Shown here in pieces: positions 3,207-46,679 of a stretch of 48,513 nt of DNA; the stretch's first letter is position 1, and every line of letters begins with the position of its first letter. Source of the stretch: Planctomycetota bacterium (GTDB lineage: Bacteria; Planctomycetota; Phycisphaerae; Phycisphaerales; SM1A02); NCBI GenBank assembly GCA_016873115.1, contig VGYB01000013.1, positions 1-48,513 on the forward strand. Direction: 5' to 3'. The translations under genes and the position numbers were made by a program. The notes below the pieces were generated by a model. It saw only the letters and a program-made list of their open reading frames with translations, was not told where the DNA came from and ran no database searches.

Positions 3207-4214
3207 TCAGCCGCCAATCGATGCACGCACGGCGAGCATCGACTTCAACACCGTGTTCCAGGTGTCCTGCTTCTCGAGCAGCGCATTCGGGAACATGCAG
3301 CCATCCCAGCAGATGTGCCGGATCCCGCGTCCGGCCGCACCGTCGAGCCACTTCGCCGAGCACGCTGGGATGTCGAGCTTGCCGTTCGGATCGTCCGCCG
3401 GACAGTGGCGGCCGGTCCTGTCATGCGACCCCGTGCCGTGCACGGTGCCGTCGCTTTGCGCGACATGGAAGTCGATCGTCCAGGGACGCAGCGCGTCGAC
3501 GAGCTTCGCGTAGGCCTTCTCGAACTCCTTCCTCGAATGTTTCGTGCCGAGCAGCGCCGTCTTGGGAGAGTTGACACCGAGCAGGTAGAGGTAGGTGTGC
3601 GCGAGGTCGGCCTGGAAGCCGACGGTCCCCGGCAGGTCGACCGTCTCGAGCACCGCGAGCATCGCCTTCCACGAGTGCATGCCGGCCCAGCAGACCTCGC
3701 CCTCGGCGGCGAGCCGCTCGCCATGGCCCGCGGCGACCATCCCTGCTTCGCGGAAGGTGGCTGCGATCCTCCGGATCGCCTTGGACTCGTTCTTCGCCGC
3801 CGCCTTCGTTCCGGTCGCACTGTCGATGCGGATCACTCCGGAGCGACGCACGCCGTGCTCATTCAGGACACGACCGATGCGACAGGCCTTGCGCACCGCG
3901 TCGATGAATCGCGCCCGCTCCTCGGCAGAGCCCATCGCGCTGTCCCCGACAGTCCCAGGCCAGACCGGCGCCACGAGCGAGCCGACCGCGAGGCCCTTCG
4001 CGGCGATCCGGTCCGCCATCCGTCGAAGGTCGGACTCGCTTGCATCCGGATCGATGTGAGGGTGGAACAGGAAGAGATCGACGCCGTCGAACTTCTGCCC
4101 ATCGACGGATGCTTTCTCGGTGAGCTCGAGCATGCGGTCGAGCGAGATCGGGGGGTGATCGGTTCCCGGCTCCTTCCCGACGAGACCCGGCCACATGGCG
4201 TTGTGAAGCTTCAT
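3207..4214 (-). CDS. Sugar phosphate isomerase/epimerase, xylose-isomerase-like TIM barrel
   Basis: A 335-aa protein of the AP-endonuclease-2/xylose-isomerase-like fold. Candidate metal ligands on the barrel strands are Glu in EGEVCW (about 171-176), Asp and His in QADLAHT (about 201-207), and His in DFHVAQSDG (about 248-256). The family interconverts keto- and aldo-sugars or 3-epimers using a divalent metal; the substrate here is unknown. ATG 4214 has an AAGGAG site 7 nt upstream, and a TACCGT hexamer lies at 4236-4241, so it may also have its own promoter inside the 66-nt gap after the cupin gene. It sits between a cupin and a Gfo/Idh gene, all on the minus strand, which suggests one sugar-processing unit. 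Confidence 0.83.
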
Positions 4215-4280: not shown

Positions 4281-5540
4281 TCAGGGCCGGTGCGCACCGA
4301 CCCTCGGTGCGTCAGGGTTCACTTCGGGACCGAAGTAGCGAAGGCAGACCAGCGGCTCGGTCGTCGAGGCGTTGGTGAAGGTGACTCCCCGGCGCGCGCC
4401 GGCCTCGGTGCAGAAGTACTCGTCGTTGGTGAGCTCGCGGAAGCGGATCAGTCGTGGGCTCGACAGCGGCTCGCCGTTGATCGTGCCGGTCCCCTGCACG
4501 CAGGTCAGGCCGTACGCGCCGTTGTCGGTGATGGTCGCCGTGGCGCCCGGCTCGACCGTCAGTTCCTTCGCGGTGAAGCATTCGAAGCCGTTCATCGTCC
4601 CGTAGATGATCCAGCGGTCGTGCCAGCCATCGCCCTTCGCAGCCGTCACCGGCTCGAGGTAGCGGTTCGCCTTGAAGTTCGGGTCGACATTCTTCTCCCA
4701 ATCGAGTTGCTCGACAATGAAGTCGAGGTCGCGGTGCTTCTCCTTCGGCATGTCCTTGACGAGAAGTTCCCACGGCACCGGGCGACCTTCGACGAGCGAC
4801 TGGTACATCGCGAAGACATCGCTTCCCCACTGCGGTTCGTAGGTGCAAAGCGAACCCGGTGCGTGCAGGACGCGCGGCTCCATGATCCATCCCGTGCCGA
4901 CCTTCAGGCGATAGGCCTGCGACAGGTCGAGGATGCCGTTGTCGCCTTCGTTCCACCGCTCGAGGCAGCGGCGCACATCTTTCTTCGTCGTGCCCGGCAC
5001 GAGACCCATGAAGGTGTGCGGGAAGTTGTTGCCGACCGGATTGTGCTGCGGTGGGAAGTAGTACGCCTCGGGCTTCCCCTCCTGCCCGACGAGCGCAGCC
5101 TGCGCGTCATCCTGGTGCATGTGGTGAGGGATCGGCCCCATGTTGTCGAAGAACTTCGCATACACGGGCCACTTGCCGTAGCGCGACCAGATGCGCTCAC
5201 CGATCAGGTCGCTGCCGCATTCGGCCACGGCTTGCTTGAGCGTGAAGCGCTCGCGTCCAACCACGCAATACGACAGCCCCTCGTCGGGCTCGCGGTGATC
5301 GTTCGCGGCTTCGGTCGTCGAACTGAACCAACGCTCGTCGATGCCGCCGCGATGCAGCCCGTACGCGTAGGTGTCGTCTGGGTGCAACTTGATCCGCAGG
5401 CCCGGCTGCAGGAAGGACCGCGGCACCCAGCAGGGCGCGAGCCGCAGCAGCCCTTGCGTTCGAGAGAGTTCCGCACTGACCGTGCGAAGGATGCCTTCCT
5501 TGCGAACGGTCAGTTCGGTGGTCGAGGTCGGAGCTCGCAT
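4281..5540 (-). CDS. Cupin-fold phosphomannose-isomerase-like protein
   Basis: A 419-aa protein resembling class I mannose-6-phosphate isomerase-like cupins. The first cupin core holds a metal-site cluster HHMHQDD (residues 139-145) with a further His in PRVLHAPG (about 222-229). A second, smaller cupin barrel occupies about residues 330-410. It probably binds a metal and isomerises a sugar or sugar acid, but the reaction is not determined. It is the first gene of the left arm and is divergent from the L-rhamnose isomerase gene across 189 bp, which suggests a related sugar. Start at ATG 5540: upstream codons are non-coding in character, there is no Shine-Dalgarno site, and a GATACTGC box sits 6 nt before the ATG, as at other lead genes in the window. 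Confidence 0.72.
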   Translation of the reverse strand: MRAPTSTTELTVRKEGILRTVSAELSRTQGLLRLAPCWVPRSFLQPGLRIKLHPDDTYAYGLHRGGIDERWFSSTTEAANDHREPDEGLSYCVVGRERFTLKQAVAECGSDLIGERIWSRYGKWPVYAKFFDNMGPIPHHMHQDDAQAALVGQEGKPEAYYFPPQHNPVGNNFPHTFMGLVPGTTKKDVRRCLERWNEGDNGILDLSQAYRLKVGTGWIMEPRVLHAPGSLCTYEPQWGSDVFAMYQSLVEGRPVPWELLVKDMPKEKHRDLDFIVEQLDWEKNVDPNFKANRYLEPVTAAKGDGWHDRWIIYGTMNGFECFTAKELTVEPGATATITDNGAYGLTCVQGTGTINGEPLSSPRLIRFRELTNDEYFCTEAGARRGVTFTNASTTEPLVCLRYFGPEVNPDAPRVGAHRP

Positions 5541-5546
5541 GGTGCG

Positions 5547-5552
5547 GCAGTA
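5547..5552 (-). promoter_or_regulatory. Candidate -10 box of the cupin gene (near match)
   Basis: Minus-strand TACTGC (inside GATACTGC) ends 6 nt before the ATG at 5540. It fits the lead-gene pattern except that the last base is C. In the GATACT register the gap is 8 nt. Confidence 0.35.
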
Positions 5553-5596
5553 TCGCGCATTCGGCGGACCAAGGCCGGCTGGCCACGATGCACCCA

Positions 5597-5625: not shown

Positions 5626-5716
5626 CCACGAGCCTGCGACGCCGGACAGGTCCCCGCAGTCCACGCGCCCAACGCCCGAGAACGCCGCAGCCGGCACGCC
5701 GGGACTTCGGATCTCG

Positions 5717-5722
5717 TACTGT
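5717..5722 (+). promoter_or_regulatory. Candidate -10 box of rhaI, leaderless position
   Basis: TACTGT ends 7 nt before the ATG at 5730. No Shine-Dalgarno site lies between. Transcription starting about 7 nt after the box would begin at the start codon. Confidence 0.45.
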
Positions 5723-5729
5723 GGGCTCC

Positions 5730-6932
5730 ATGGCATCGCCATCCCACCCGAGCGACCGGACCCTCGCCGCCATCCTCCCACGGCTCGGCCGATTGTCGAT
5801 CGAACTGCCCTCATGGGGCTTCGCGGATACCGGGACCCGGTTCGGCAAGTTCCTGCAGGACGCGGCGGCCCTGAGCCTCGACGACAAGCTCGATGACGCG
5901 GCCGAAGTCCATCGCGTCACCGGCTGCTGTCCGCAGGTCGCCGTCCATGTGCTGTGGGATGTGCCCGAAGGCGGCGCATCCGCACTCGCGAACGCCGCGG
6001 CACAGCGCGGTCTGCGCATCGGCTCCATCAATCCGAATGTCTTCCAGGACCAGTGCTACAAGCATGGCTCGGTCTCGAACGAGGACCCGTCGATCCGGCG
6101 CCGTGCGATCAACCACCTGCTGGAGTCGGTGCGACTGGGTCAGGCGGTCGGCTCGCGCACCCTCGCACTCTGGTTCGCGGACGGGACCAACTATCCGGGA
6201 CAGGGCAGCATGATCCGCCGCAAGCGCTGGTTCACCGAGGCCCTTGCCGAAGTGCACGCCGCGATGCCTGCCGGCATGACGATGCTCGTGGAGTACAAGC
6301 CCTTCGAGCCCGCCTTCTACCACACCGACATTGCCGACTGGGGCATGGCGTGCGCGCTCGCGCGCCGGGCAGGACCGCAGGCCAAGGTCCTGGTCGACAC
6401 CGGTCATCACCTTCCGGGGCAGAACATCGAGCACATCGTGGCGTTCCTCGCCGACGAAGGCATGCTCGGAGGCTTCCACTTCAACGACCGCCACTACGCC
6501 GATGATGACCTGACCACCGGTTCAATCGACCCCTACCGGGTCTTCAGGATCTTCGTCGCGATCGCGGAGGCCGAGCGTGCGCTCGGACACGACCTGCCGA
6601 TCGACTACATGATCGACCAGTCGCACAACCTCAAGCCCAAGATCGAGGCGATGGTGCAGACCGTGACGACGGTGCAGGAACTCTTCGCGAAGGCCCTGCT
6701 CGTCGATCTGGACGCGCTCGATGAAGCGCGGCGGCGACGGGACATCGTGGCCGCCGAGGAGTGCCTGAAGCACGCCTTCGCGACCGATGTGCGTGCAGTG
6801 CTCGCAGCGTGGCGCGAGTCGCGCAGCTTGCCGGCCGACCCGCTCGCTGCGCACCGATCGTCTGGCTATGAGTCCCGTGCAGCGGCCGCTCGACTGCCGC
6901 GCAAGCGCGCGTCCGGTGGTTCGTACGCATGA
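5730..6932 (+). CDS. rhaI: L-rhamnose isomerase, RhaI type
   Basis: Converts L-rhamnose to L-rhamnulose, the first step of the phosphorylating rhamnose pathway, in the cytoplasm. The 400-aa protein matches the Pseudomonas stutzeri/Gram-positive type of sugar isomerase, not E. coli RhaA. Metal ligands are recognisable as Glu188 (VEYKPFEP), Asp223 (LVDTGHH), His250 (GGFHFND) and Asp296 (MIDQSHN). Their spacing of 35, 27 and 46 residues equals that of the P. stutzeri ligands E219/D254/H281/D327 as I recall them. Second-site residues His226, Asp258 and Asp260 are also present. It heads the right arm: its TGA overlaps the ATG of the kinase frame (ATGA at 6929-6932), so translation is probably coupled. 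Confidence 0.93.
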   Translation: MASPSHPSDRTLAAILPRLGRLSIELPSWGFADTGTRFGKFLQDAAALSLDDKLDDAAEVHRVTGCCPQVAVHVLWDVPEGGASALANAAAQRGLRIGSINPNVFQDQCYKHGSVSNEDPSIRRRAINHLLESVRLGQAVGSRTLALWFADGTNYPGQGSMIRRKRWFTEALAEVHAAMPAGMTMLVEYKPFEPAFYHTDIADWGMACALARRAGPQAKVLVDTGHHLPGQNIEHIVAFLADEGMLGGFHFNDRHYADDDLTTGSIDPYRVFRIFVAIAEAERALGHDLPIDYMIDQSHNLKPKIEAMVQTVTTVQELFAKALLVDLDALDEARRRRDIVAAEECLKHAFATDVRAVLAAWRESRSLPADPLAAHRSSGYESRAAAARLPRKRASGGSYA

Positions 6933-9900
6933 GCACCCGTCGTCACATCGCGATCGATCTCGGCGCATCGGGAGGGCGCGTGATCGAGGTGCGCATCGGC
7001 GCGGGTGAACTCAGGATGATCGAACTCCACCGGTTCGCCAACGCGCCAGTGACCGCACCGCATGCCGGCACAACGCTGCTCCACTGGCCGATCGAGCTGA
7101 TCTGGGCCGGGATCCTGGACGGCCTGCGTGCGGCGGCCCGGGGCGGCCGCGTCGATTCGATCGGCATCGACTCCTGGGCGGTCGACTACGCGCTCATCGA
7201 TGGGCACGGCGAGCTGGTGCGTCCGATCGCCGCGTACCGTGATCCCCGCACGCGGGAACCCTTCGCCCGGCTTCGTGCATCGCTTGGGGATGATGAGATC
7301 TATCGACGGACCGGCATCGCCTTCCAGCCCTTCAACACGATCTACCAGCTCGCCGCCGATGCGGTCGACCCGACTCGACCGCTGGATCGAGCGGAGCGGA
7401 TGCTGCTGCTGCCGGACTACATCGCCAGCCGCCTCTGCGGTGCGATGGTCGCCGAGCGCACCAACGCGAGCACCACGCAGCTGCTCGATGCGCGCACCCG
7501 CTGCTGGTGCCCGCGCCTCGCGGCCGCTGCGGGCGCACCGATGCACCTCTTTCCCGACCTCATCGATGCGGACTCCGCAGAACCGCTCGGTGGGCTGCTC
7601 GCGGTCATCGCCAAGGCGACCGGACTCGCTGTCGGCACGCCCATCCTCGCGGTCAACAGCCATGACACGGCCTCGGCGGTGCTTGCTGCTCCCATCGATC
7701 CAGCGCACGATCTCTACATCTCGAGCGGTACCTGGTCGCTCGTCGGCGCCGAACTGCGCGCCGCCGTGACCAGCGATGACGCGCGCACGGCGAACCTGAC
7801 CAACGAGCTGGGTGCATTCGGCTCGGTCCGGTTTCTCCGCAATGTGGCCGGACTCTGGCTCGTGCAGCAGTTGGAGGCCGGGTTCGCCCGCGCCGGGCGG
7901 GCGCGCTCGTGGCCCGAACTCGTGGCCCTTGCCGAGGCAGCAGAACCGCTGCGCAGCCTCGTCGACCCGGACGATCCTCGGTTCTTCGAGCCCGGCGACA
8001 TGGCTGAGCGGCTGCGAGAGGCCTGCTCGGCCCGTGGCGAGCCGTCGCCGGACTCGGATGGTGCGCTCGTCCGCTGTGCACTCGATAGCGTTGCGCTCGC
8101 CACAGCCCGCGCCGTCGATGCCATCACACGCGCTGGCGGGCTCTCGCCGAGCCGGATCGTGATCGTCGGCGGCGGCTCGGCGAACGGATTCCTGAACCAA
8201 CTCGTCGCCGATGCAACCGGCCTGCCCGTCACCACCGGCCCAGTCGAGTGCACGGCCATCGGCAACGCCCTGATGCAATACGCCGCCCTCGAGGGGATCG
8301 ACTCGGCTGCTCCGCTGCGCGCGATCGTCCGGGCAGCGTCGGGGAACGATGCGATGGAACGCCATCCGGGACGCGACATGCACGCTCGGATGCAGGATGC
8401 CGCGCCGCGGCTACTGTGGTGCCGCTCCTCACTGAAAGTACCGACCTCCATGACCGCCGCCCCTTCGCCTTTCGTCAACCGCACCTGGAACGACACCGAC
8501 TCGGCGCGGCTCGACCCCGTCGATCTGCTGGTCTATCGATCGAACCGCCTCGGCGACGACCAGCGGGTCACCAACACAGGCGGCGGCAACACCTCGAGCA
8601 AGGTGATCGAAACCGATCCGCTCACTGGTGCCCGTGAGCGTGTTCTCTGGGTGAAGGGATCCGGCGGCGACCTGCGCACCGCAGGGCGAGAGTTCTTCTC
8701 CTCGCTCTCGCTCGACAAGCTGGAGCAGCTCAAGTCCGTCTACGCCGCGCGAACGCCGCGTGGAATCAAGACCCAGGCCGAGGATGACATGGTCGACCTC
8801 TACCGGCACTGCACCTGGAACCTCAATCCGCGTGCCACCTCAATCGACACCCCGCTGCATGCCTTCGTGCCCCACGCCCATGTGGACCACACCCATCCCA
8901 ACGCGCTCATCGCCATCGCCGCCTGCACGCGGGGCAAGGAGGCGATGCGCGAGGTCTTCGGCGACGAACTCGAATGGCTTCCGTGGATGAGGCCGGGGTT
9001 CGAGCTGGGGCTCGCGCTCGAACGGCTCTGCGCCGACCATCCCAGCGCGGTCGGCGCGATCATGGGCCAGCACGGTCTCATCAACTGGGCCGATGACCCG
9101 CGGGAGTGCTACGACCTCACGCTCTCCCTGATCGCCCGCGCGGCGGAGTATCTGGCGGCCCACGACAGGGGAACGAAGACCTTCGGCGGATGCAAGGTCG
9201 CCGCTGCCTCGGACGAGGCGCGTCGTGCCCTGCTGGTGCGGTTCCTCCCCTTCCTCCGTGGCAAGGTCTCCACGCGCCGGCGCATGATCGGCACCGTCCA
9301 CCATGACGCAGCCACGCTCGAGTTCGTCTCGAGCGCCGATGCGGCACGCCTGGCCGAGCTCGGCACCTCGTGCCCGGATCACTTTTTGCGCACCAAGATC
9401 AAGCCGCTCTTCCTGGACTTCGATCCCAACACGGGCTCCTTCGACGACCTCTGCGCCAAGACGGAGGCCGGCCTTGCGCAGTATGTGAAGGACTATGCGG
9501 CGTACTACGACGCCTGCCGCCATCCCGACAGCCCGGCCATGCGGGCACCCGAACCAACCGTGATCCTGGTGCCCGGGATCGGCATGATCGCCTGGGGGTC
9601 GTCGAAGTCCGAGAGCCGAACCACGGCCGAGTTCTACCGGTGTGCGATCGAAGTGATGCGGGGTGCCGAGTCGATCGGCGGGTACGGCGCGCTGCCTCGG
9701 CAGGAAGCATTCGACATCGAGTACTGGCGACTTGAGGAGGCCAAGCTGCAGCGGATGCCCAAGCCCAAGCCGCTGGCCGGGCATGTGAGCGTGATCGTGG
9801 GTGCTGGCAGCGGCATCGGCCGGACGACCGCGTCGATGCTTGCCGCCGACGATGCCTGCGTGGCCTGCGTCGACCTCGATGCAACCGCTGCCGGAGAGAC

Positions 9901-10636
9901 GGCGCGTGGTCTTGAGCGATCGGTCGGCAAGGGCATTGGCGTCGCCGGCAGCGGGATCTCGGCATGCGGACCGTCGATCGCGCTCTCCTGCGACGCGACC
10001 GACCGCAGCGCCGTGCGTCGCATGCTCGACGATGTCACGCTGGCCTACGGCGGCATCGATGAACTGGTGGTGACCGCCGGACTCTTCCCGACGCCCGGGC
10101 CGGATGGCCGCACCAGCGATGGCGACTTCATGCGAGCGATGCAGGTCAATGTGCTTGCACCGGCGGTGCTCATCGAAGAAGCAGCCGCGACGATGGCCCC
10201 GCAGCGACTCGTCTGCAGTGCTGTGGTCACGACGAGCGTCAATGCCGTCGTCGCCAAGAAGGGATCCAGTGCCTACGACGCATCCAAGGCGGCGGCAAAC
10301 CATCTCGTGCGTTCGCTCGCCGTGACCTTCGCGCCGTTCCTGCGCGTGAATGCCGTGGCACCGGCGACGGTGATCGAGGGCAGCACGATGTTCCCGCGGG
10401 CCCGGGTGATCGCGAGCCTGCGGAAGTACTCGATCCCCTTCGAGGAATCGATGACCGATGCCCAGCTCGTCGAACGCCTTGGTCGCTTCTATGCCGAGCG
10501 CACGCTGCTGAAGGTGGTGATCTCGCCGCAGGACCAAGCGGCTGCCATCCGCTTCTTGGCAGGACCGGAGAGCTCACGCACGACAGGACAGGTGCTCCAT
10601 GTCGACGGTGGTCTCGCCGATGCCTTCGTGAGGTGA
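6929..10636 (+). CDS. rhaB: Rhamnulokinase fused in frame to rhamnulose-1-phosphate aldolase/lactaldehyde dehydrogenase
   Basis: One open frame of 1235 codons covers the two remaining core steps. Residues 1 to about 475 are an FGGY kinase: DLGASGGR (10-17), catalytic Asp246 in NSHDTASA, SSGTWSLVG and VGGGSANGF. It would phosphorylate L-rhamnulose. From about residue 508 follows a class II aldolase domain (TGGGNTSSK, WVKGSGGDL, metal His in HAHVDHTHP, GQHGLINW). It cleaves rhamnulose-1-phosphate to DHAP and lactaldehyde. A C-terminal SDR domain (GAGSGIG, YDASK) oxidises or reduces the lactaldehyde. The aldolase-dehydrogenase pairing is the known bifunctional RhaD/YuxG type; the extra kinase is unusual. 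The linker of about 30 residues reads like intergenic sequence, so a missing stop, or an independent start at ATG 8450, remains possible. Confidence 0.85.
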   Translation: MSTRRHIAIDLGASGGRVIEVRIGAGELRMIELHRFANAPVTAPHAGTTLLHWPIELIWAGILDGLRAAARGGRVDSIGIDSWAVDYALIDGHGELVRPIAAYRDPRTREPFARLRASLGDDEIYRRTGIAFQPFNTIYQLAADAVDPTRPLDRAERMLLLPDYIASRLCGAMVAERTNASTTQLLDARTRCWCPRLAAAAGAPMHLFPDLIDADSAEPLGGLLAVIAKATGLAVGTPILAVNSHDTASAVLAAPIDPAHDLYISSGTWSLVGAELRAAVTSDDARTANLTNELGAFGSVRFLRNVAGLWLVQQLEAGFARAGRARSWPELVALAEAAEPLRSLVDPDDPRFFEPGDMAERLREACSARGEPSPDSDGALVRCALDSVALATARAVDAITRAGGLSPSRIVIVGGGSANGFLNQLVADATGLPVTTGPVECTAIGNALMQYAALEGIDSAAPLRAIVRAASGNDAMERHPGRDMHARMQDAAPRLLWCRSSLKVPTSMTAAPSPFVNRTWNDTDSARLDPVDLLVYRSNRLGDDQRVTNTGGGNTSSKVIETDPLTGARERVLWVKGSGGDLRTAGREFFSSLSLDKLEQLKSVYAARTPRGIKTQAEDDMVDLYRHCTWNLNPRATSIDTPLHAFVPHAHVDHTHPNALIAIAACTRGKEAMREVFGDELEWLPWMRPGFELGLALERLCADHPSAVGAIMGQHGLINWADDPRECYDLTLSLIARAAEYLAAHDRGTKTFGGCKVAAASDEARRALLVRFLPFLRGKVSTRRRMIGTVHHDAATLEFVSSADAARLAELGTSCPDHFLRTKIKPLFLDFDPNTGSFDDLCAKTEAGLAQYVKDYAAYYDACRHPDSPAMRAPEPTVILVPGIGMIAWGSSKSESRTTAEFYRCAIEVMRGAESIGGYGALPRQEAFDIEYWRLEEAKLQRMPKPKPLAGHVSVIVGAGSGIGRTTASMLAADDACVACVDLDATAAGETARGLERSVGKGIGVAGSGISACGPSIALSCDATDRSAVRRMLDDVTLAYGGIDELVVTAGLFPTPGPDGRTSDGDFMRAMQVNVLAPAVLIEEAAATMAPQRLVCSAVVTTSVNAVVAKKGSSAYDASKAAANHLVRSLAVTFAPFLRVNAVAPATVIEGSTMFPRARVIASLRKYSIPFEESMTDAQLVERLGRFYAERTLLKVVISPQDQAAAIRFLAGPESSRTTGQVLHVDGGLADAFVR
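8450..10636 (+). other. Possible separate start of the aldolase/dehydrogenase part
   Basis: ATG 8450 (codon 508 of the long frame) would give a 728-aa protein, close to the usual length of bifunctional rhamnulose-1-phosphate aldolase/alcohol dehydrogenases. Just upstream, CGGCTACTGTGG (from 8409) resembles the promoter box of rhaI (CGTACTGTGG). The linker encoded between the kinase end and this ATG has Cys/Trp/Arg content unlike the domains on either side. No stop codon separates them, so both a fusion and an internal start are compatible with the sequence. Confidence 0.4.
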
Positions 10637-10640
10637 TCCC

Positions 10641-10961
10641 ATGCAACGCATCTGCTTCTTGCTCAAGGTCCGTACCGAGCGATTGGCCGAGTACCGCGAG
10701 CGCCACAAGGCCGTCTGGCCGGAACTGCTGGCTGCGCTCTCCAGGCACGGCTGGACGAACTACTCGCTCTTCCTGCGCGATGATGGACTGCTGGTCGGCT
10801 ACTGCGAGACACCGGACTTCGCTGCCGCCGTCGCCGGCATGCAGTCGGAAGAGGTGAATGCCCGGTGGCAGCGCGAGATGGCACCATTCTTCGAATCGCT
10901 CGGCACCGGTGCAGCCGACACCTCGATGCAAGCGCTCGACGAGGTCTTTCACCTCGCCTGA
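10641..10961 (+). CDS. rhaM: L-rhamnose mutarotase
   Basis: A 106-aa protein of the RhaM/RhaU family, a dimeric alpha-beta barrel that interconverts alpha and beta anomers of L-rhamnose and so feeds the isomerase. Family features are the N-terminal ICFLLKV strand, YRERHKAVWPEL with the catalytic His, NYSLFL, the paired Trp region NARWQREM, and the characteristic C-terminal LDEVFHL (E. coli RhaM ends in a similar LQEVFYL). It starts 4 nt after the stop of the kinase/aldolase frame, with GAGGTG as ribosome site, and closes the right-arm operon. A 28-nt copy of its 3' end reappears at 14581-14608. Confidence 0.93.
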   Translation: MQRICFLLKVRTERLAEYRERHKAVWPELLAALSRHGWTNYSLFLRDDGLLVGYCETPDFAAAVAGMQSEEVNARWQREMAPFFESLGTGAADTSMQALDEVFHLA

Positions 10962-10978
10962 CGAAGCTCCATCCCCTT

Positions 10979-10994
10979 GCGGTGGCCGCACCGC
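10979..10994. terminator. Small hairpin between convergent genes
   Basis: GCGGTG / CACCGC with a GCCG tetraloop, followed on the plus strand by a C-rich run, 18 nt after the rhaM stop and 20 nt before the end of the convergent lectin/dockerin gene. Short stem; a possible terminator for either direction. Confidence 0.4.
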
Positions 10995-11014
10995 CGCCCC
11001 CCCCACATCACTGA

Positions 11015-13309
11015 TCAGGGGCAGGCACCCCACGACCCCAGCACCACGGCAAGATCGGCACCGGAAACGAGGCCATCGCCGGTGAGATCCATCGGACAAG
11101 CACTGCAGGCACCCCAGGCACCGAGTACCCGCGCCAGATCACTGCCACTCACCTGCCCATTGCCGTCAAGGTCTGCAGGGCATGTTGCCTGCGCCGGCAG
11201 TTCCACGATGAAACCCCGCCGCTGGTTCTGTGCCCATGTGTCATCGAGGCCGATCCGAGGACCACTCTGGAACGAGTAGAAACACGCCACATCACCGAAG
11301 CCGCTCGGCTCGCCCGGTGTCCACGGATTCCACACCAAGGGCGAGCCGCCAAGCCAAGCCCAGGTAGGCGACCCGACTTCCTTGCGCAACCCGACCCACG
11401 GACCACCGTTGTAGGGCGTCATGCTCCACAGAGCGGGGAAACTCACCATCTCGCGGAAGACCCAATTCGCCTCCTCTGGAGTCTCAAGCACGGCGAGCGT
11501 GCCGCCAATCGCCTCGGCAGCAGCCGCAGCCTGCTGCCATGTCACGTGCATCGGAGCGATCACCGAACGGTATCGCTGTCCGGTGCCGCCCTCATCGACG
11601 GACCAAGTCCGCTCCTGCAAGGACGGAGGCACATCGAACTCGACAAGCGCATAGCCGAAGAGCTCGCCCTGGTCGTTCCATGAGCCGTCGGGGTAGATGC
11701 TCGCGAAGTCCTCACCGCCGGCGTCGTTGGGTTCGCCGACACTCCAGTTCGTCCACACCAGCGGCTCACCGGTGATCCAAGCCCAGCCGCCCGCCGGCTC
11801 CGCTCCTGCCCCCTGCACGAGACCGAGGGCCGTGGAACCGCCGAAGGTCGGGATCTGCACGCCGCTGCGCACGAACGACAGCTCAGCTTCGCTCGTGATC
11901 GTGGCGAGGTAGCCGCCCAGTTCGGTGGCCCGGTCCGCGACCTCGGCGAAGGGCGTGGGCGAAGGGAAGGACACCACTGCATACGCGTGGCCATTGCCAC
12001 CTGCTGACGCTGGCCACGTCGCTGCGACCGTCGTTGGCCACGGCTGCGTGATATCGACGAGCGAAAGGTCGATCTCGCCATCGCCCCAGACGTTCTTCCC
12101 GCCGACGCGGATCAGGTACGACTCGCCGGCGACACCCTGGAACGCCGTGCGCGACGTCCCACCGGGACAGCCGAACGCATCGTCACCACAGGCCAGCAGC
12201 ATGCCGTTGCAGGCGTCATACACGGCCAGGCGAGTATCGAAGCCAGCATGACCGCACGTCGAGACAGCGATGCCGTTGTCGAAGGGCGCAGTGCAGACGA
12301 ACCAGACGTCATTCGTGAAGGCACCGCCGGTCTGGACATCGCTGCACTCGGTGATGAGCAACGGCCCATCGGTGTTGCAGTTGCGGGTCGTGAAGGGAAT
12401 GCGGCCAAAGTCAAGCCGCTTCGGTGCTGCGCAGTTGTCATGTTCCGGCGCAATGCCGCAGAGGACCGCCGCCTGGTTGACGCACAGCACATCCCAGTCC
12501 GATGCGCAGCACGATGGATCCGCCGCACAGACAGCCGAGCAGCAGTTGATGTCGTTGCAGCCCGGTCCCTGATGTTCAAGCCCGCAATTTGCACCGGTGC
12601 CGCAGCTATCGGGCGGCGGGGGCGAGTAGGTCCCGACCATCGTGGTGTTGCCGAAGGCGACCTCGGTGTGAAGCAGGAAGGTCAATCCGGGGAGGGCGTC
12701 AACCGTGGTTTGACTGTCGATCGCCCCGATGGTGAGCTGCGACACCTGCATCGCACCGCCACCGATCGCGAAGGTCCCGCCGAAGGGCGAGAGCGAGTTC
12801 ACATCAAGGGCACCGGCCGATGACGAGAACGGACTCGTGATCGTGTAGTCGCCCCTCACTCGCCACGTGGTCCCGAAGTCGGCTCGACCGGACGGAATGA
12901 TGGTGGCCTGCGATGGTGCCACCAGCGTGGCCGAAAGCCCTGCGAGATTCACTGTGACCGGAACGCAGCCGAAGATGGGCGAACAGAAGAGGTCGTACCG
13001 GAGCGTGCCGCCACTGAATCCGAATCGCCCCTCCTGGATCACGACGCCGTCGTGTGGCGGTTGGTTGGGGCTGATCGTGAAACGACCGTTGCCGTCCATG
13101 GCTACGAGGATGGAATCCACATCGGTCTCGCTGTCCACGCCATCGGTGACGGTGATCGCGAGCGTGATGACCGCGGTCGCACCGGGGGGCACGGCGACGG
13201 GGACGTCAAAGGACGCCGAGGCGGTCGCGAGCGGTGCCAGCAGGAGCGGTGCCAAGGCGCGTCCCATGGCGCGGCCGGGGGACCACACGGGTCGAGAGGT
13301 TCGGGTCAT
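11015..13309 (-). CDS. Secreted multidomain protein: two C-type-lectin-like domains plus dockerin-like repeats
   Basis: A 764-aa exported protein. The signal peptide (about residues 1-32) includes the ALAPLLLAPLATASA stretch. The N-terminal third is beta-rich and unassigned. A Cys-rich motif follows (GCNDINCCSAVC, DPSCCASDWDVLC), then a NDNCA-type beta-sandwich segment with FDTRLAVYD. Two C-type-lectin-like domains come next. The first has GGYLATITSEAE, WTNWSVGEPNDAGG and SWNDQ. The second has GGTLAVLETPEEA, WNPWTPGEP and a DDTW core. Two dockerin-like loops with CPADLDGNGQVSG and CPMDLTGDGLVSG close the protein. The lectin modules suggest carbohydrate or surface-ligand binding; no enzyme motif is visible. 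Start at ATG 13309 with only a weak AGGA site; ATG 13264 is an alternative. It is convergent with rhaM and divergent from the sorted protein at 13623. Confidence 0.8.
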   Translation of the reverse strand: MTRTSRPVWSPGRAMGRALAPLLLAPLATASASFDVPVAVPPGATAVITLAITVTDGVDSETDVDSILVAMDGNGRFTISPNQPPHDGVVIQEGRFGFSGGTLRYDLFCSPIFGCVPVTVNLAGLSATLVAPSQATIIPSGRADFGTTWRVRGDYTITSPFSSSAGALDVNSLSPFGGTFAIGGGAMQVSQLTIGAIDSQTTVDALPGLTFLLHTEVAFGNTTMVGTYSPPPPDSCGTGANCGLEHQGPGCNDINCCSAVCAADPSCCASDWDVLCVNQAAVLCGIAPEHDNCAAPKRLDFGRIPFTTRNCNTDGPLLITECSDVQTGGAFTNDVWFVCTAPFDNGIAVSTCGHAGFDTRLAVYDACNGMLLACGDDAFGCPGGTSRTAFQGVAGESYLIRVGGKNVWGDGEIDLSLVDITQPWPTTVAATWPASAGGNGHAYAVVSFPSPTPFAEVADRATELGGYLATITSEAELSFVRSGVQIPTFGGSTALGLVQGAGAEPAGGWAWITGEPLVWTNWSVGEPNDAGGEDFASIYPDGSWNDQGELFGYALVEFDVPPSLQERTWSVDEGGTGQRYRSVIAPMHVTWQQAAAAAEAIGGTLAVLETPEEANWVFREMVSFPALWSMTPYNGGPWVGLRKEVGSPTWAWLGGSPLVWNPWTPGEPSGFGDVACFYSFQSGPRIGLDDTWAQNQRRGFIVELPAQATCPADLDGNGQVSGSDLARVLGAWGACSACPMDLTGDGLVSGADLAVVLGSWGACP

Positions 13310-13622
13310 TGGTGTTGGTCCTGGTGGCGATCCCGCTTCGGCCTGACGGCCCTCCACAGGACGCCCCAGAAGGTGCTTCCCAAGCGAGGCCACGCAAGGA
13401 GTTAGTCCGGGAATCCGGGAAAACGCAGCGCAGCGGGCCACGCTCTGCCCGGTGGATCCGCGGCCTCGCTCGAGGGCCGACCTCGCACGCCGATGGCCAA
13501 CCCGTGCGTTTTTGACCCCCCTGATTTGCCTCGGGCCTCGTTTGCGTTAGTTTGGCGGTGGAGTTCCCGTGTGTCGGGGGCCGTGTCATGGAGAGCGGGA
13601 TCAGGGCCAGGAGCCTGTTCTC
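13310..13622. other. 313-bp divergent intergenic region
   Basis: Lies between the divergently transcribed lectin/dockerin gene and the sorted exoprotein gene. No coding potential recognised. For the plus-strand gene a weak promoter can be drawn: TTGCCT (13526-13531), a 16-nt spacer, then TAGTTT (13548-13553), giving a leader of about 60 nt that contains CCAGGAG just before ATG 13623. No convincing promoter was found for the minus-strand gene. Confidence 0.4.
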
Positions 13623-14399
13623 ATGCGTTCGACCCTCTCCGTCTGCGCGCTTGTGCTTGCTGTCGCCGCTTCGGCCGATGCCGCGCTCACCGCCATTTAC
13701 CGCACGAACACCAACAACGACGTCGCCGACAGCTACGGCACGTACAACAATCTTTATAGCCTCGGCAGCCACTCGTCGGGCGGCAACACGTCGATCAGCC
13801 CCAGCCTGTCGAGCATGCGCCACACCTACATCTTCGGCGATTTCGTCGGAGGTCAGACCGCCGACCCGTACATGTACCGGACGGTGCTCAACAGCAGCAA
13901 CCAGATCACCCAGATCATCCGGTACGCCGCGCCCACGAGCGATCCGATGGCCAACCTGCGCACGAACACCGGCGGCCAGGTGTTCAACCTCTCGCAGGCG
14001 TGGAACTGGGAGGACGACTTCTACCACGACGGCACTGCGTTCTATCGCAACGCCACCGGTTCGAGCAGCAACTTCGGCGTCACCCGCTACGCCACCTTCA
14101 TGGACTTGGTGAACAACACCAACGGCACGTTCTACAACTACGGCGCGAACTACGGTTTCAACGACCGCTTCTTCGGCTTCGAAGGCAAGATCTACCGAAC
14201 CAACACCGGCGGTCCCGGCGGCTCGGTCAATGGCTTCGCGGTCTACAACAGCTTCAATGACCTGTTGAGCGGCAACGTTGCGCAGACCATCAGCAGCGTC
14301 AACTACTCCGCCGGTGACCTGTACATCGCGGTCCCGGCTCCGGGCGCGATGGTGCTGCTCGGTGTGGCCGGACTCGTCGGCGCGCGTCGCCGCAAGTGA
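13623..14399 (+). CDS. Exported protein with PEP-CTERM-like sorting tail
   Basis: A 258-aa secreted protein of unknown function. The signal peptide is residues 1-21 (MRSTLSVCALVLAVAASADA). The mature part is rich in Asn, Thr, Ser, Gly and Tyr, with no enzyme motif. The C-terminus has PAPGAMVLLGVAGLVG followed by Arg-Arg-Arg-Lys, the Pro/Ala-Gly, hydrophobic helix, basic tail arrangement of PEP-CTERM-type signals processed by an exosortase. No exosortase gene is in the window. A CCAGGAG site lies 9 nt before ATG 13623, which supports this start over the upstream in-frame ATG. Its neighbour at 14833-15507 has the same tail and the same kind of terminator, so the two are probably handled by the same export machinery. 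Confidence 0.82.
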   Translation: MRSTLSVCALVLAVAASADAALTAIYRTNTNNDVADSYGTYNNLYSLGSHSSGGNTSISPSLSSMRHTYIFGDFVGGQTADPYMYRTVLNSSNQITQIIRYAAPTSDPMANLRTNTGGQVFNLSQAWNWEDDFYHDGTAFYRNATGSSSNFGVTRYATFMDLVNNTNGTFYNYGANYGFNDRFFGFEGKIYRTNTGGPGGSVNGFAVYNSFNDLLSGNVAQTISSVNYSAGDLYIAVPAPGAMVLLGVAGLVGARRRK

Positions 14400-14425
14400 C
14401 TCGCGGCATCCTCGTGACATGACCC

Positions 14426-14452
14426 GCGGGGTCGGCGTTGCGCCGGCCCCGC
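14426..14452 (+). terminator. Hairpin terminator after the first sorted exoprotein
   Basis: GCGGGGTCGGC / GCCGGCCCCGC, 11 bp with one G-T pair and loop GTTGC, 27 nt after the stop. Followed by TGTCGTGG rather than a T-run. Confidence 0.75.
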
Positions 14453-14472
14453 TGTCGTGGACGAGCGTCGAA

Positions 14473-14580
14473 TCACGGTTCGGGAGGCTGGCGATCGCTG
14501 CAGGCCTTCGTGCAGGCCGTCCACGCCCGCGCGATACCGAGCCACAGCAGTGCATTGCCGATGAAGCCCACGACGCGCAC
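14473..14580 (-). pseudogene. C-terminal remnant of a small membrane protein gene
   Basis: On the minus strand this encodes VVGFIGNALLWLGIARAW and then a diverged tail ending in QPPEP and a stop. It is clearly related to the C-terminal part of the small membrane protein at 16223-16465 (same VVGFIGNALLWLGIARAW, ending QPPAP). Around 14521-14577 the DNA is nearly identical to the intact gene. The N-terminal half is missing: upstream of the first shared codons the frame meets a stop after four codons. Confidence 0.7.
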
Positions 14581-14608
14581 CGACGAGGTCTTTCACCTCG
14601 CCTGACGA
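14581..14608 (+). pseudogene. Remnant of a rhaM 3' end
   Basis: Exactly 28 nt identical to 10937-10964, the last codons of rhaM (DEVFHLA plus stop) and the bases after it. The similarity continues as TCCATCCCC (14612-14620) as in the DNA after rhaM. It abuts the membrane-protein remnant with no spacer. It contains the small palindrome CGAGGT-CTTTC-ACCTCG. Confidence 0.65.
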
Positions 14609-14701
14609 CGATCCATCCCCCCCCCACCCCGGTGCGCTCCAATCACCCATGGACCAAGAACTTACGCTTCGTAGCCCCGGCAAATCAATTTCAGAGTTTC
14701 C

Positions 14702-14730
14702 TTGTTCGTTCAGCCCTTAGGGGTTAGAGT
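14702..14730 (+). promoter_or_regulatory. Candidate promoter of the second sorted exoprotein gene
   Basis: TTGTTC, 17-nt spacer, TAGAGT, in the most AT-rich part of the 14400-14832 intergenic region. It implies a leader of about 95 nt. That leader contains a GC hairpin (GCGCGGC / GCCGCGC at 14784-14799) and a CCGGAG site before ATG 14833. Confidence 0.4.
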
Positions 14731-14832
14731 GCATTCAGCGTCGGAGAGTGCGAATTGGGACTGATGTGCGGGGAACGGGGCGAGCGCGGCGAGCCGCGCG
14801 TGTCCGTACATCCCTCACCGGAGTTTCGTCCC

Positions 14833-15507
14833 ATGAAGAGCACCCTGTTCGCGGCCGTCGGCATCGCGAGTCTGAACGTCGCATCGGCATCCTTCGCGGC
14901 ATACGGATTCACCTACACCGACTCGTCGAACGACCTGTTCGACAACGGCTTCGCCAACCTCGACATCACGAGCGTCTTCATCACCGACAACGGCGCCAAC
15001 CTGAGCATCTCGGTCACCACGCGTGGCTTCCAGAACTGGACGAAGTACATGATGTACTTTGACACAGCCAGCGGCGGCACCAACAGCAACGCCTGGAACC
15101 GTCCGGTGAACCTCACCTCGGACATCGAGTACTACATCGGCTCATGGGTCGATTCGGGGGCGTTCTCGAACAACTCCCAGCTGGTCCACTGGACCGGCTC
15201 CTCGTGGGGCTGGGGCAGTGAGCAGTACCTGTCCAACTCGGTCAGCGGCAACACGGTCACCTGGACCATGTCGCTCGCATCGCTCGGCCTCTCGGCCGGC
15301 AGCGTCTTCAAGTTCGATGTCGCCACCTCCGGCGGCCAATCCTCGGACCCCGGTATCGACCACCTGAGCCGAAGCGATGCTGCGACCCCCGGGTGGGGCT
15401 CGCCCTCGACTTCAGGCATGTTCCTGACCTACACCGTCAGCCCTGCCCCCGGCGCGATCGCGCTGCTGGGCATGGCCGGACTCTTCGGCACCCGTCGCCG
15501 CACATGA
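14833..15507 (+). CDS. Exported protein with PEP-CTERM-like sorting tail
   Basis: A 224-aa secreted protein of unknown function. The signal peptide is about residues 1-22 (KSTLFAAVGIASLNVASASF). The mature region is predicted beta-rich, with Ser/Asn/Trp-rich strands such as WTGSSWGWGSEQYL, and no catalytic motif. The tail PAPGAIALLGMAGLFG plus Arg-Arg-Arg-Thr is a PEP-CTERM-like sorting signal. ATG 14833 is preceded by CCGGAG at a suitable distance; the 26 codons of open frame upstream do not look coding. It follows a 433-bp intergenic region with two gene remnants and its own promoter, and ends in a strong hairpin, so it is probably monocistronic. Confidence 0.82.
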   Translation: MKSTLFAAVGIASLNVASASFAAYGFTYTDSSNDLFDNGFANLDITSVFITDNGANLSISVTTRGFQNWTKYMMYFDTASGGTNSNAWNRPVNLTSDIEYYIGSWVDSGAFSNNSQLVHWTGSSWGWGSEQYLSNSVSGNTVTWTMSLASLGLSAGSVFKFDVATSGGQSSDPGIDHLSRSDAATPGWGSPSTSGMFLTYTVSPAPGAIALLGMAGLFGTRRRT

Positions 15508-15528
15508 TCCCCATCTGAATCCTGATCT

Positions 15529-15555
15529 GCAGGGCCGGCTCAGTGCCGGCCCTGC
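15529..15555 (+). terminator. Hairpin terminator after the second sorted exoprotein
   Basis: Perfect 11-bp repeat GCAGGGCCGGC / GCCGGCCCTGC with loop TCAGT, 22 nt after the stop. Followed by TGTCGTTGCGGGG. The convergent tag gene ends 28 nt further on. Confidence 0.8.
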
Positions 15556-15582
15556 TGTCGTTGCGGGGTCGGCCCGATCCGG

Positions 15583-16173
15583 TCAGCAGCGTGCCAGCCT
15601 CGCGCACGCCCGATGGCGCGGACAGGTCACCAGATGCTCGTTGAACATGCCAACGGCCTGCATGAAGGCATGCACGATCACGGGGCCGCAGAATGCGAAT
15701 CCGCGCTTCTTGAGTACCTTGGCGAGCGACTCGCTCTGCGGGGTCTGCGCGCGGATGTCCGCTGCGCGCTTGAGTTGCAGGTCCACCGTGCGATGCCCGA
15801 CATGGCTCCACAGCAGGTCGCGGAAACTCCCATCCCCGGCATCCATCACCTTCATCCATGCCCGTGCATTGCCGATCGCTGCGTCGATCTTCGCGCGTGA
15901 GCGGATGATGCCCGCATCCGTGAGCAGGCGCTGGACATCCCGCTCCGTGAAGCGGGCGACGCGTTCGGGATCGAAGCCCTTGAACGCGCGCTCGAAGGCC
16001 GGGCGCTTGCGCAGGATCGTGAGCCATGAGAGCCCTGCTTGAAACCCATCGAGGACGAGCTTGGCGTAGAGCGCCCGGTCATCGGTGACCGGCACGCCCC
16101 ACTCGGTGTCGTGATAGGCCACATAGACCGGGTCAGTCCCGCACCACCAGCATCTATGGGCTTGCCCAAGCAT
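15583..16173 (-). CDS. tag: DNA-3-methyladenine glycosylase I
   Basis: Excises 3-methyladenine from alkylated DNA, starting base-excision repair. The 196-aa protein has the helix-hairpin-helix fold signature of Tag: an N-terminal RCWWC (Zn ligand Cys8), YHDTEWGVP with Zn ligand His21, GFQAGLSWLTILRKR, and DAGIIRSRAKIDAAIGNARA. The C-terminal zinc half is NEHLVTCPRH (His and Cys). In E. coli Tag the residue before the conserved Gly of the xGxQAGLSW motif is the base-contacting Glu38; here it is Asp42, a conservative change. ATG 16173 has no Shine-Dalgarno site but a TAGCCT box 6 nt upstream. It is convergent with the sorted protein gene and separated from the membrane-protein gene by 49 nt. 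Confidence 0.92.
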   Translation of the reverse strand: MLGQAHRCWWCGTDPVYVAYHDTEWGVPVTDDRALYAKLVLDGFQAGLSWLTILRKRPAFERAFKGFDPERVARFTERDVQRLLTDAGIIRSRAKIDAAIGNARAWMKVMDAGDGSFRDLLWSHVGHRTVDLQLKRAADIRAQTPQSESLAKVLKKRGFAFCGPVIVHAFMQAVGMFNEHLVTCPRHRACARLARC

Positions 16174-16179
16174 GAACGA

Positions 16180-16185
16180 AGGCTA
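16180..16185 (-). promoter_or_regulatory. Candidate -10 box of tag, leaderless position
   Basis: Minus-strand TAGCCT ends 6 nt before ATG 16173; no Shine-Dalgarno site. Confidence 0.45.
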
Positions 16186-16222
16186 GCCGCGGCACATGCT
16201 GCCACGGGACCGCGGTGTCACA

Positions 16223-16465
16223 TCAAGGCGCAGGTGGTTGGTGCCTATCACCGCCCGGCGTGCAGTTCCCCCACGCCCGCGCGATGCCAAGCCAGAGCAG
16301 TGCATTGCCGATGAAGCCCACGACGCGCGCAATCGGCAGTTCTTCGAAGGGCACGCCGGCACCAGCGGCGATCGCGAACAGCGCGGCCAGAACGGCGCCT
16401 GTCAGCAAGAAACCACCCATGCAGGCAAGCGCGGGTGTGACGGGGTTCCTCGGCAGATGCCGCAT
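16223..16465 (-). CDS. Small two-helix membrane protein
   Basis: An 80-aa protein with two hydrophobic segments, about residues 12-35 (ALACMGGFLLTGAVLAALFA) and about 46-64 (VVGFIGNALLWLGIARAW), joined by a short loop with FEELP. The tail is polar and Pro-rich. No family recognised. It starts 10 nt after the stop of the glycosyltransferase gene and is probably cotranscribed with it. No Shine-Dalgarno site is visible. A TAGCAT hexamer 7 nt upstream includes the glycosyltransferase stop codon and may be coincidental. A truncated relative of its C-terminal half lies at 14473-14580, so the sequence has been duplicated locally. Confidence 0.65.
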   Translation of the reverse strand: MRHLPRNPVTPALACMGGFLLTGAVLAALFAIAAGAGVPFEELPIARVVGFIGNALLWLGIARAWGNCTPGGDRHQPPAP

Positions 16466-16475
16466 GGGCAGGATG

Positions 16476-17339
16476 CTACGGCGGCCCGCGCCGGCGTGTG
16501 GGTTGGTCCGCGCCCCGTTCCAGTTCACGCACCTTCAGGCCGATTTCCCAGAAGTAGCTGGCCTTGAGGAAGGCGTAGGCCAATCCGGCATGACCGTCCA
16601 TCCATCCACCGCGTCGAACATAGGTGTCCAGGAAGTAGACGCCAGGCAGCCACCACGCCCCGATGGATCGGTACTTGCGGCGTTGTCGGGGCGTGAGCCC
16701 TGCCTCCGCGAGCTGTCCCTGGCGACGGAGCATGGCCGTGCGCTGGGCCTCCCACGAGGAATACTCATTGTGCTTGCGCAGCCAATGCTCAAGCCCACGA
16801 TCGTCACGGTGGTCGATCCTTGAGACGAGGTCACCGAGCGTTCCCTTGAGGATCGGGTGCTCATGGATCTCCATGTCCAGATGGCTCCAGCGATCCTCCT
16901 CGATGCGTTCGTACTCACCGGCACCGACGCGAAACAGCGCGAGCTTGCGATTCACATCGCCGTGACGCAGTCGCTTGCCAAGGAACCACGTGTCGTAGTT
17001 GATCCAGAATCCTGAGTGTCCGGTGGAGGGCAGCGTGCGTTCCAGCTCATCGCAGAAGGCGTCGTCGACGAACTCGTCGGCATCGAGGAAGAAGACCCAC
17101 GGCGTGATCGGTGCATGGTGACGCAGGAACCAATTGCGCTTCTTCGGAAAGTGACCATCCCACGCGAAGTCGATGACATGCGCACCATGCTCGATGGCGA
17201 TGGCCTTGGTGCGATCCGAGCTTCCCGAGTCAATGACCACCACGCGCTCAAACCGCGACAACCGTGCCAGGCACGCCGGCAGGTTGCGCTCCTCGTTGCG
17301 CGCGGGAATCGCGACCGTGACTGGGAGCCGAGCGGGCAT
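16476..17339 (-). CDS. Family 2 glycosyltransferase, WaaE/KdtX-like
   Basis: A 287-aa GT-A fold transferase. The N-terminal strand is VTVAIPARNEERNL, followed by VVVIDSGSSDRT, which binds the nucleotide sugar, and the metal-binding DxD in FFLDADEF (Asp86-Ala-Asp88). Downstream are HEHPILKG and the Tyr-Ser-Ser-Trp-Glu-Ala-Gln helix seen in WaaE/KdtX lipopolysaccharide-core glucosyltransferases. No transmembrane helix is obvious. Likely role: adding a sugar to a lipid-linked or core oligosaccharide at the inner face of the membrane; donor and acceptor unknown. ATG 17339 has no Shine-Dalgarno site but a GATACTGA box just upstream. It is followed after 10 nt by the small membrane protein. Confidence 0.85.
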   Translation of the reverse strand: MPARLPVTVAIPARNEERNLPACLARLSRFERVVVIDSGSSDRTKAIAIEHGAHVIDFAWDGHFPKKRNWFLRHHAPITPWVFFLDADEFVDDAFCDELERTLPSTGHSGFWINYDTWFLGKRLRHGDVNRKLALFRVGAGEYERIEEDRWSHLDMEIHEHPILKGTLGDLVSRIDHRDDRGLEHWLRKHNEYSSWEAQRTAMLRRQGQLAEAGLTPRQRRKYRSIGAWWLPGVYFLDTYVRRGGWMDGHAGLAYAFLKASYFWEIGLKVRELERGADQPTRRRGPP

Positions 17340-17587
17340 GACCCCGTCAGTATCGGCACTGCGATCACACCCCCTCAACCCGGTGGAGGAAATCGCCTTA
17401 CTGCCGATCACTTATCACCACCCAGGGGTGCAGGATTCCCCCTTGGGCCCCTCGAACGCCGCGGTCATTGGTGGCCCGCACTGCCCCACAGACGGCCGCC
17501 CCGCCACAGGCACCTTCCCATGGTGTGCGCCCTTCAGGACCCGTTGCAGGGCATCGCTCGTGGCAGGCGTGCCGGGAAGGACGGCGA
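17340..17587. other. 248-bp intergenic stretch without a recognised gene
   Basis: Lies between the glycosyltransferase start and the end of the SMUG1-type glycosylase gene, both on the minus strand. Short open frames here are Arg/Pro-rich and unconvincing. The only signal seen is the GATACTGA box at 17347-17354 next to ATG 17339 (TACTGA register gap 7 nt, GATACT register gap 9 nt). Confidence 0.4.
17347..17352 (-). promoter_or_regulatory. Candidate -10 box of the GT2 gene (near match)
   Basis: Minus-strand TACTGA (inside GATACTGA) ends 7 nt before ATG 17339. The sixth base is A rather than T. Confidence 0.35.
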
Positions 17588-18861: not shown

Positions 18862-18898
18862 GGTGGCTCCGTCTGGGGTGCATGCCATCGTGCGAAGA

Positions 18899-19909: not shown

Positions 19910-19916
19910 GGGCGCA

Positions 19917-19922
19917 AGGGTA
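19917..19922 (-). promoter_or_regulatory. Candidate -10 box of galE, leaderless position
   Basis: Minus-strand TACCCT ends 7 nt before ATG 19909; no Shine-Dalgarno site. Confidence 0.45.
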
Positions 19923-19968
19923 GTGCGCCATGTGGCCCGTGGGCCATCGATGGCGAAGCGATCCTCCG

Positions 19969-19974
19969 TAGGAT
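19969..19974 (+). promoter_or_regulatory. Candidate -10 box of the transglutaminase-like gene
   Basis: TAGGAT ends 7 nt before ATG 19982. A CCTCCT run lies between; the sequence is not a Shine-Dalgarno site. Confidence 0.45.
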
Positions 19975-19981
19975 CCTCCTC

Positions 19982-21826: not shown

Positions 21827-21911
21827 CGGTCGAGGCGCTGGCGAGGCCGGGAACATGGACGAAACGGAGCCTCGATTTCGCACCGTTGCGATTCTGTGGC
21901 ATCATGCCCCC

Positions 21912-22745: not shown

Positions 22746-22789
22746 AGAGTCCCGCCAATTCCGGGCACGACACCTGCACCCCGCGGGGG

Positions 22790-22795
22790 TATCCT
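22790..22795 (+). promoter_or_regulatory. Candidate -10 box of the nucleotide-sugar dehydrogenase gene
   Basis: TATCCT ends 9 nt before ATG 22805; no Shine-Dalgarno site. Confidence 0.45.
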
Positions 22796-22804
22796 TCCGA
22801 ACCC

Positions 22805-24124: not shown

Positions 24125-24166
24125 GCGCCTCGGTCCGGAGTACCCGCACACCGCCCCAAACTGACC

Positions 24167-46678: not shown

Positions 46679-46679
46679 G

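Follow-up and report, generated by a model that had tools for sequence, protein, structure and literature searches.

The rhamnose operon in the draft genome of an uncultured planctomycete (assembly GCA_016873115.1, here G000) carries a kinase gene and an aldolase/dehydrogenase gene in one uninterrupted reading frame, and comparison with relatives points to a lost stop codon between them. The DNA analyzed, referred to as the window, is a stretch of 48,513 nucleotides (nt) from contig VGYB01000013.1, and the frame runs over 1,235 codons from the ATG at 6929 to the TGA at 10634-10636 without a stop. The initial annotation had read it as a possible trifunctional rhamnose enzyme. On the comparative sequence evidence, it is likely that the kinase stop was really lost, and privately to this genome, in an ordinary rhamnose operon, joining the kinase to the aldolase/dehydrogenase; with the stop gone and the next gene starting in frame 18 nt further along, the kinase reads through into it. 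The coordinates of all features are listed in Table 1.

Two enzymes in one frame

The single frame with a kinase and a bifunctional aldolase/dehydrogenase, as first annotated, was confirmed by its open reading and by profile matches. Similarity to FGGY sugar kinases covered residues 1 to about 487, with the Pfam domains PF00370 (FGGY_N, residues 7-252, 86.0 bits, cutoff 28.8) and PF02782 (FGGY_C, residues 262-453, 136.3 bits, cutoff 27) and a retained Asp placing this half in the family. The top NCBIfam match of residues 1-500 was the rhamnulokinase profile TIGR02627 with 406.7 bits, below its equivalog cutoff of 527.95, and PRK10640, the other of the two top profile matches, was likewise under its curated cutoff. 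Escherichia coli rhamnulokinase 2cgj aligned to residues 2-472 (E=2.3e-91). The name rhamnulokinase-like was therefore chosen from the best match (cutoff missed), the 2cgj alignment, and the operon context.

From Met508 onward, NF006189 (971.6 bits, cutoff 634) and TIGR02632 (891.9 bits, cutoff 567.75) each surpassed their curated cutoffs by more than 300 bits. The domain order of RhaEW was found, with a class II aldolase (PF00596, residues 539-737) followed by a short-chain dehydrogenase (SDR; PF00106, residues 954-1148, and PF13561, residues 958-1229), and membership in this family was also indicated by the catalytic residues in 105 loci and by the rha locus with its RhaI-like and RhaM neighbors. 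Amino acid identity to the products of separate genes in three relatives (L023, L024, and L025) was 86-88%.

The motifs described as intact in the initial annotation were indeed conserved. The Asp of the kinase motif NSHDTASA was D in 84 of 84 loci with a match covering the position, and three aldolase His residues and the SDR Ser, Tyr, and Lys were unchanged in 105 of 105 loci, counts in which some places are present twice and were counted twice. The acidic aldolase residue was Asp in the window and in 103 of the 105 loci, which makes it a family trait. We take the kinase Asp, the aldolase His and acidic residues, and the SDR Ser, Tyr, and Lys to be catalytic. Between the two halves, residues ~488-514 were unconserved, in agreement with the intergenic look noticed earlier at the join.

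The stop codon in relatives

The nearest relative, G002 (contig VGXJ01000145.1, locus L022), aligned over all 1,235 residues with 96% amino acid identity and had one TAA inside the frame, at the codon matching TCA 8429-8431 of the window in the nucleotide alignment. Its aldolase ATG matched window position 8450, and the TAA stood 18 nt before that ATG. The difference between TAA and TCA fits a recently lost stop, which had been listed among the alternatives. The internal start proposed at 8450 corresponds to the start of a separate gene in G002, and its independent use in the window is a prediction. Other near relatives also begin a separate aldolase gene close to this position.

Matches were found in 13 of 41 genomes compared (the window's own, its genus, family, and order) and class-wide in 229 of 397 genomes, with two candidates scored per genome; only G000 spanned both domains without a stop among the matches listed for the 397 class genomes. 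The loci compared comprised the best 80 of 592 from one collection scan plus loci from searches of genomes and plasmids, and are a non-random sample. Outside the window's genome, 37 distinct junctions had the aldolase gene after the kinase gene on the same strand, and a stop separated the two in all 37. In 32 of them, among which is G002, the genes lay within 300 nt of each other, and in 5 they were further apart. Five junctions are weak tests, four because 430-1401 nt of other DNA separate the genes (L039, L051, L065, and L098) and one with a frame-shifted kinase match (L046).

Candidate fusions elsewhere were rejected. In the same-frame matches L023-L025, L029, L030, and L032-L035, a stop was found between the domains in each, and no fusion in the opposite order was seen, with all 17 aldolase-then-kinase loci separate (two places appear twice). 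Kinase and aldolase lay on opposite strands in 4 loci, and 63 loci carried one domain only at E<=1e-15. Eleven plasmid records covered at least 80% of the query; the unannotated records H1-H3 (Embleya and Streptomyces) carry separate genes in the order aldolase then kinase, and H4-H11 each have two or more separate features by annotation.

A trifunctional enzyme as an established or conserved architecture is rejected in view of the G002 stop and the separate genes at all 37 junctions, none of which is fused. Relatives with two separate proteins and a stop at the homologous position were the finding that the initial annotation had named as speaking against its proposal, and this is what G002 displayed. 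Since no genome other than this draft was found to carry the fusion, the trifunctional reading is only partly supported. A literature search for rhamnulokinase with trifunctional returned no paper, from which no wider absence from print is claimed. The N-terminal tails of the aldolase vary among relatives; L024, for instance, has a long Ser/Pro tail. An extra domain at the N terminus may therefore be tolerated.

Nine further near relatives have their kinase stop (TAG or TAA) in the alignment column that reads TGC (8420-8422) in both the window and G002, three codons before 8429. This fits a two-step history, deduced from an alignment that is gapped immediately downstream, in which an older stop disappeared in the shared lineage and a new TAA three codons on was kept in G002 and is gone in the window.

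Divergence around the junction

Nucleotide identity to G002 was 96.5% over 5691-10957, 99.0% over 10831-13210, and 95.2% over 13318-14578, and the matching pieces of 16259-31490 were just 81-84% identical. In the G002 assembly, which is 81% complete, short matches only (1-115 and 120-460) were found to the left of 5691, and no match was found for 33900-48513. The drop in identity falls inside one G002 contig (L136) and inside the window's contig, which favors a true recombination border over a binning mistake. The pattern suggests that ~9 kb were recently exchanged between species.

The junction itself lies in a more divergent tract that takes in the final third of the kinase, the join, and 41 nt at the start of the aldolase gene, where the difference from G002 rose to ~14% versus 2% around it (log-likelihood ratio 72.8; maximum over 60 block shuffles, 29.4). 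Within this tract, 8151-8270 was 97% identical to G002. The stop difference is thus not one odd base in near-identical DNA, since it sits in a tract differing at about species level, and its position suggests mosaic recombination. Synonymous divergence (dS) between G000 and G002 was 0.59 for kinase codons 441-487 and 0.06 for the aldolase part. The ratio of nonsynonymous to synonymous divergence (dN/dS) was 0.15 in the kinase and 0.08 in the aldolase part, with 0.24 in kinase codons 441-487. Both halves look constrained, and the excess in the tract is partly attributable to less constrained kinase sequence, but synonymous sites show elevated divergence as well. In comparison with nine outgroups, the outgroup majority base was present in G000 at 37 and in G002 at 24 of the 83 differences in the tract, and at 22 and 4 of the 38 differences in 6929-7910. 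Distances to the nine outgroups gave no answer as to which of G000 and G002 received the tract.

A promoter-like element before the aldolase start

The promoter-like TACTGTGG at 8412-8419, to which the initial annotation had drawn attention, deserved the notice, as it resembles the -10 element (TANNNT) that we derived for this genome. As a genome-wide signal, TACTGTGG was rejected: it occurred at 5 places in G000 versus 61 for a reversed control pattern, and is therefore rare and no common signal. The shorter TANNNT was rare on coding sense strands (90 in 344,850 nt; 427 kb of the genome sampled) and peaked 12 and 13 nt before starts, at 42 and 20 of 751 candidate starts (317 genes called with a simple script on contigs C1-C3 and C13), a mark of leaderless promoters. 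The same peak 12-13 nt before starts was observed in genome G415 (contig C3), and G114 offered too few starts. Judging from such peaks, these planctomycetes probably make many leaderless transcripts. In the same sample of G000, TGA was the stop of 292 of the 317 called genes, TAG of 17, and TAA of 8.

The hexamer TACTGT occurs twice in the whole window, at 5717 before the isomerase gene that heads the operon and at 8412 before the aldolase start. By eye, TANNNT was also present upstream of the isomerase start in L022, L023, L024, L025, L026, and L129, and was absent at the operon-head place in the distant L017 and L031. Within 60 nt before the aldolase start, TANNNT was found in 10 of 11 loci (the window and ten near relatives), at a distance of 28-50 nt. 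Eight of the ten near relatives (L023-L028, L103, and G004) have it as the kinase stop itself, reading TAGnnT or TAAnnT, and G002 carries the same TACTGT as the window. Among three further family loci only L031 had the element (TACGAT, not a stop), giving 11 of 14 family loci. Matrix scores in the top 0.05% were obtained for the TACTGT of the window and G002 and for six of the eight stop-borne sites.

For comparison, TAA or TAG stops read TAGnnT or TAAnnT in 6 of 25, 6 of 53, and 2 of 17 cases in three genomes, and TANNNT occurred in the 60 nt before close tandem starts in 26 of 120 cases in this genome, 9 of 47 in G415, and 0 of 8 in G114. In control regions, TANNNT was found before the kinase start neither in the window nor in relatives (0 of 8; L028 start doubtful), and it was absent before the mutarotase gene of the window, automatically placed mutarotase starts being unreliable and left out of the count. 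Within 60 nt downstream of the aldolase gene, it was present in 2 of 6 relatives (L026, beyond the next ATG, and L028, as the aldolase's own stop). As the relatives are not independent, no probability was attached to these counts. A scan of 6600-10900 with a sigma-70 consensus detected no site (shuffle mean 0.2), and two terminator-like sites were found in this region (shuffle mean 1.3). A leaderless start beside the TACTGT at 8412 was rejected, with no ATG or GTG seen 12-13 nt on by eye. Directly upstream of the ATG at 8450 there is no GGAG, GAGG, or AGGA; these motifs precede 59 of 125 close tandem starts versus 156 of 1,585 internal positions. It is plausible on this evidence that an internal promoter serves the aldolase/dehydrogenase, and in the relatives the kinase stop TAGnnT/TAAnnT may double as its -10 box.

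Proposed consequences and alternative explanations

If the stop loss is real, the full-length operon mRNA would yield a 132-kDa kinase-aldolase-dehydrogenase fusion, in which ~27 unconserved residues join the domains and each domain would work much like the separate enzyme. A shorter mRNA from the internal TACTGT at 8412, starting near 8424, may in addition yield a 728-residue, 78-kDa aldolase/dehydrogenase from the ATG at 8450. The predicted chemistry leads from rhamnulose through rhamnulose-1-phosphate to dihydroxyacetone phosphate and lactaldehyde and on to lactate, as in organisms with RhaB and RhaEW. Nothing in the evidence implies channeling or a selective gain. According to PMC10666635, a gap of ~20 nt almost abolishes termination-reinitiation coupling in E. 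coli and Haloferax volcanii; by analogy, if that result holds here, the 18-nt gap in G002 would permit little termination-reinitiation.

A fuller history, which we put forward tentatively and consider doubtful as a whole, is that in the lineage of the window and G002 the -10 element moved 8 nt upstream into the kinase tail, to the TACTGT at 8412, and so freed a stop previously pinned by the stop/-10 overlap; the stop would then have come to lie three codons downstream, as in G002, and have been lost in the window lineage, leaving a real three-activity fusion and a stand-alone aldolase/dehydrogenase. Several points weigh against a real loss accompanied by an internal promoter. A base error at 8430 would look identical, and given the mosaic relation to G002, a chimeric assembly at the divergent tract is still conceivable. 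In three family loci (L104, L006, and L106), TANNNT is missing from the 60 nt upstream of the aldolase gene, the kinase stops reading TAACTT in L027 and L028 are poor by the matrix, with a third-position A present in no training site, and the matrix itself was trained on 70 leaderless sites of this genome picked for TANNNT. The 38 nt from TACTGT to the ATG at 8450 also exceed the genome's 12-18 nt peak.

A sequencing, consensus, or assembly error, with the organism retaining the stop and making two proteins, would account for the frame as well, in a draft genome of 87 contigs where a single base is decisive, where that base lies within a tract in which strains may be mixed, and where the stop is kept in every junction compared elsewhere. 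We hold it to be unlikely: 83 of 580 tract sites differ from G002 and the window frame nevertheless stays open, so a real substitution is judged likelier than an isolated error. Quite improbable, in turn, is a trifunctional enzyme maintained by selection, in which the 1:1 ratio of parts and the passage of rhamnulose-1-phosphate would be favored. The checked catalytic residues are intact, the frame is open, and the operon is otherwise normal, as such an enzyme would have it, whereas 0 of 37 compared junctions are fused, the join changes like a spacer (4 nonsynonymous and 0 synonymous changes between G000 and G002 in codons 488-506, stop codon aside), and there is no sign of selection for the fusion. 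It is very improbable that the stop loss is real yet inconsequential, the fusion being unstable or cleaved, the aldolase being made as a stand-alone protein from the internal start, and the kinase part being tolerated; the promoter-like element and the native ATG are retained as this would require, but kinase production itself depends on the long frame. The private loss of the kinase stop, with production of the fusion, is the explanation that we favor over these.

The rhamnose operon and neighboring genes

By its gene content, the operon serves rhamnose breakdown of the kind that uses RhaB and RhaEW, in the order rhaI-rhaB-rhaEW-rhaM. For the isomerase, scanned from 5790, the top NCBIfam match was TIGR02635 with 489.7 bits, under its cutoff of 531.35, and PF01261 was matched with 41.2 bits (cutoff 31.1). 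The isomerase TGA and the kinase ATG share 4 nt (ATGA). For the mutarotase, TIGR02625 (57.5 bits) was under its cutoff of 99.6, yet this rhamnose family was the top match.

Table 1. Features of the rhamnose operon and of the kinase-aldolase junction in the window
Feature	Position	Strand	Evidence and remarks
TACTGT, predicted -10 of the operon promoter, leaderless type	5717-5722	+	13 nt before ATG; top 0.045% matrix score
L-rhamnose isomerase (RhaI type), first operon gene	5730-6932	+	TIGR02635, PF01261
Rhamnulokinase-like FGGY kinase (RhaB)	6929-8428	+	500 codons, ends at lost-stop position; PF00370, PF02782, TIGR02627, PRK10640, 2cgj
Divergent tract	7911-8490	.	83 differences/580 nt to G002 versus 100/4687 around
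Join, residues ~488-514	8390-8470	+	Outside conserved parts of both families (profile limits, alignment)
TACTGT, candidate -10 of an internal aldolase/dehydrogenase promoter	8412-8417	+	Top 0.033% score; predicted transcript start ~8424-8425
TCA (Ser501), kinase stop position (TAA) of G002	8429-8431	+	Nucleotide alignment with L022, junctions
Bifunctional rhamnulose-1-phosphate aldolase/lactaldehyde dehydrogenase (RhaEW type)	8450-10636	+	728 codons from own ATG; NF006189, TIGR02632
L-rhamnose mutarotase (RhaM), last operon gene	10641-10961	+	PF05336, 103.6 bits (cutoff 23.4)

Adjoining the operon, a large protein is encoded on the minus strand at 11015-13441, secreted-looking by eye and with a C-type lectin domain (PF00059). 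Upstream, on the opposite strand (3207-4214, minus), a second xylose isomerase-like TIM-barrel protein (PF01261) was found, and the adjacent frame 4281-5570 (minus) gave no match in the Pfam or NCBIfam scans. The ~1.7 kb of 14578-16259 have no counterpart at that point of the G002 contig (C37) and include a frame (14764-15507) whose C-terminal tail resembles a sorting signal by eye.

Significance and comparison with known systems

If real, the case would be a gene fusion caught early, with a near relative that keeps the stop and with the differing codon identified, and an overlapping promoter element that moved would be a plausible reason for the freed stop. It would also be a small, testable case of how operons give rise to multienzyme proteins. 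Should the base be an error, the case would illustrate that a fused frame from a draft genome has to be checked against a relative or the reads. No new enzyme class is revealed.

The aldolase/dehydrogenase resembles RhaEW/YuxG (NF006189 and TIGR02632), a bifunctional type characterized in PMC3870299, in residues 508-1235, with the same two-domain order, a match reaching the profile end, and a place in a rha operon. In contrast, the window has a kinase in frame at the N terminus, whereas RhaEW as described in PMC3870299 has two domains, the RhaB kinase being a protein of its own. The kinase keeps the SHDTASAV motif of RhaB (TIGR02627 and E. coli 2cgj) and differs from it in scoring under the TIGR02627 cutoff and in having no stop of its own. 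The closest counterpart is the rhaB and rhaEW pair of G002, which has the same gene order and the same spacing, but in which a TAA closes the kinase gene 18 nt upstream of the aldolase ATG.

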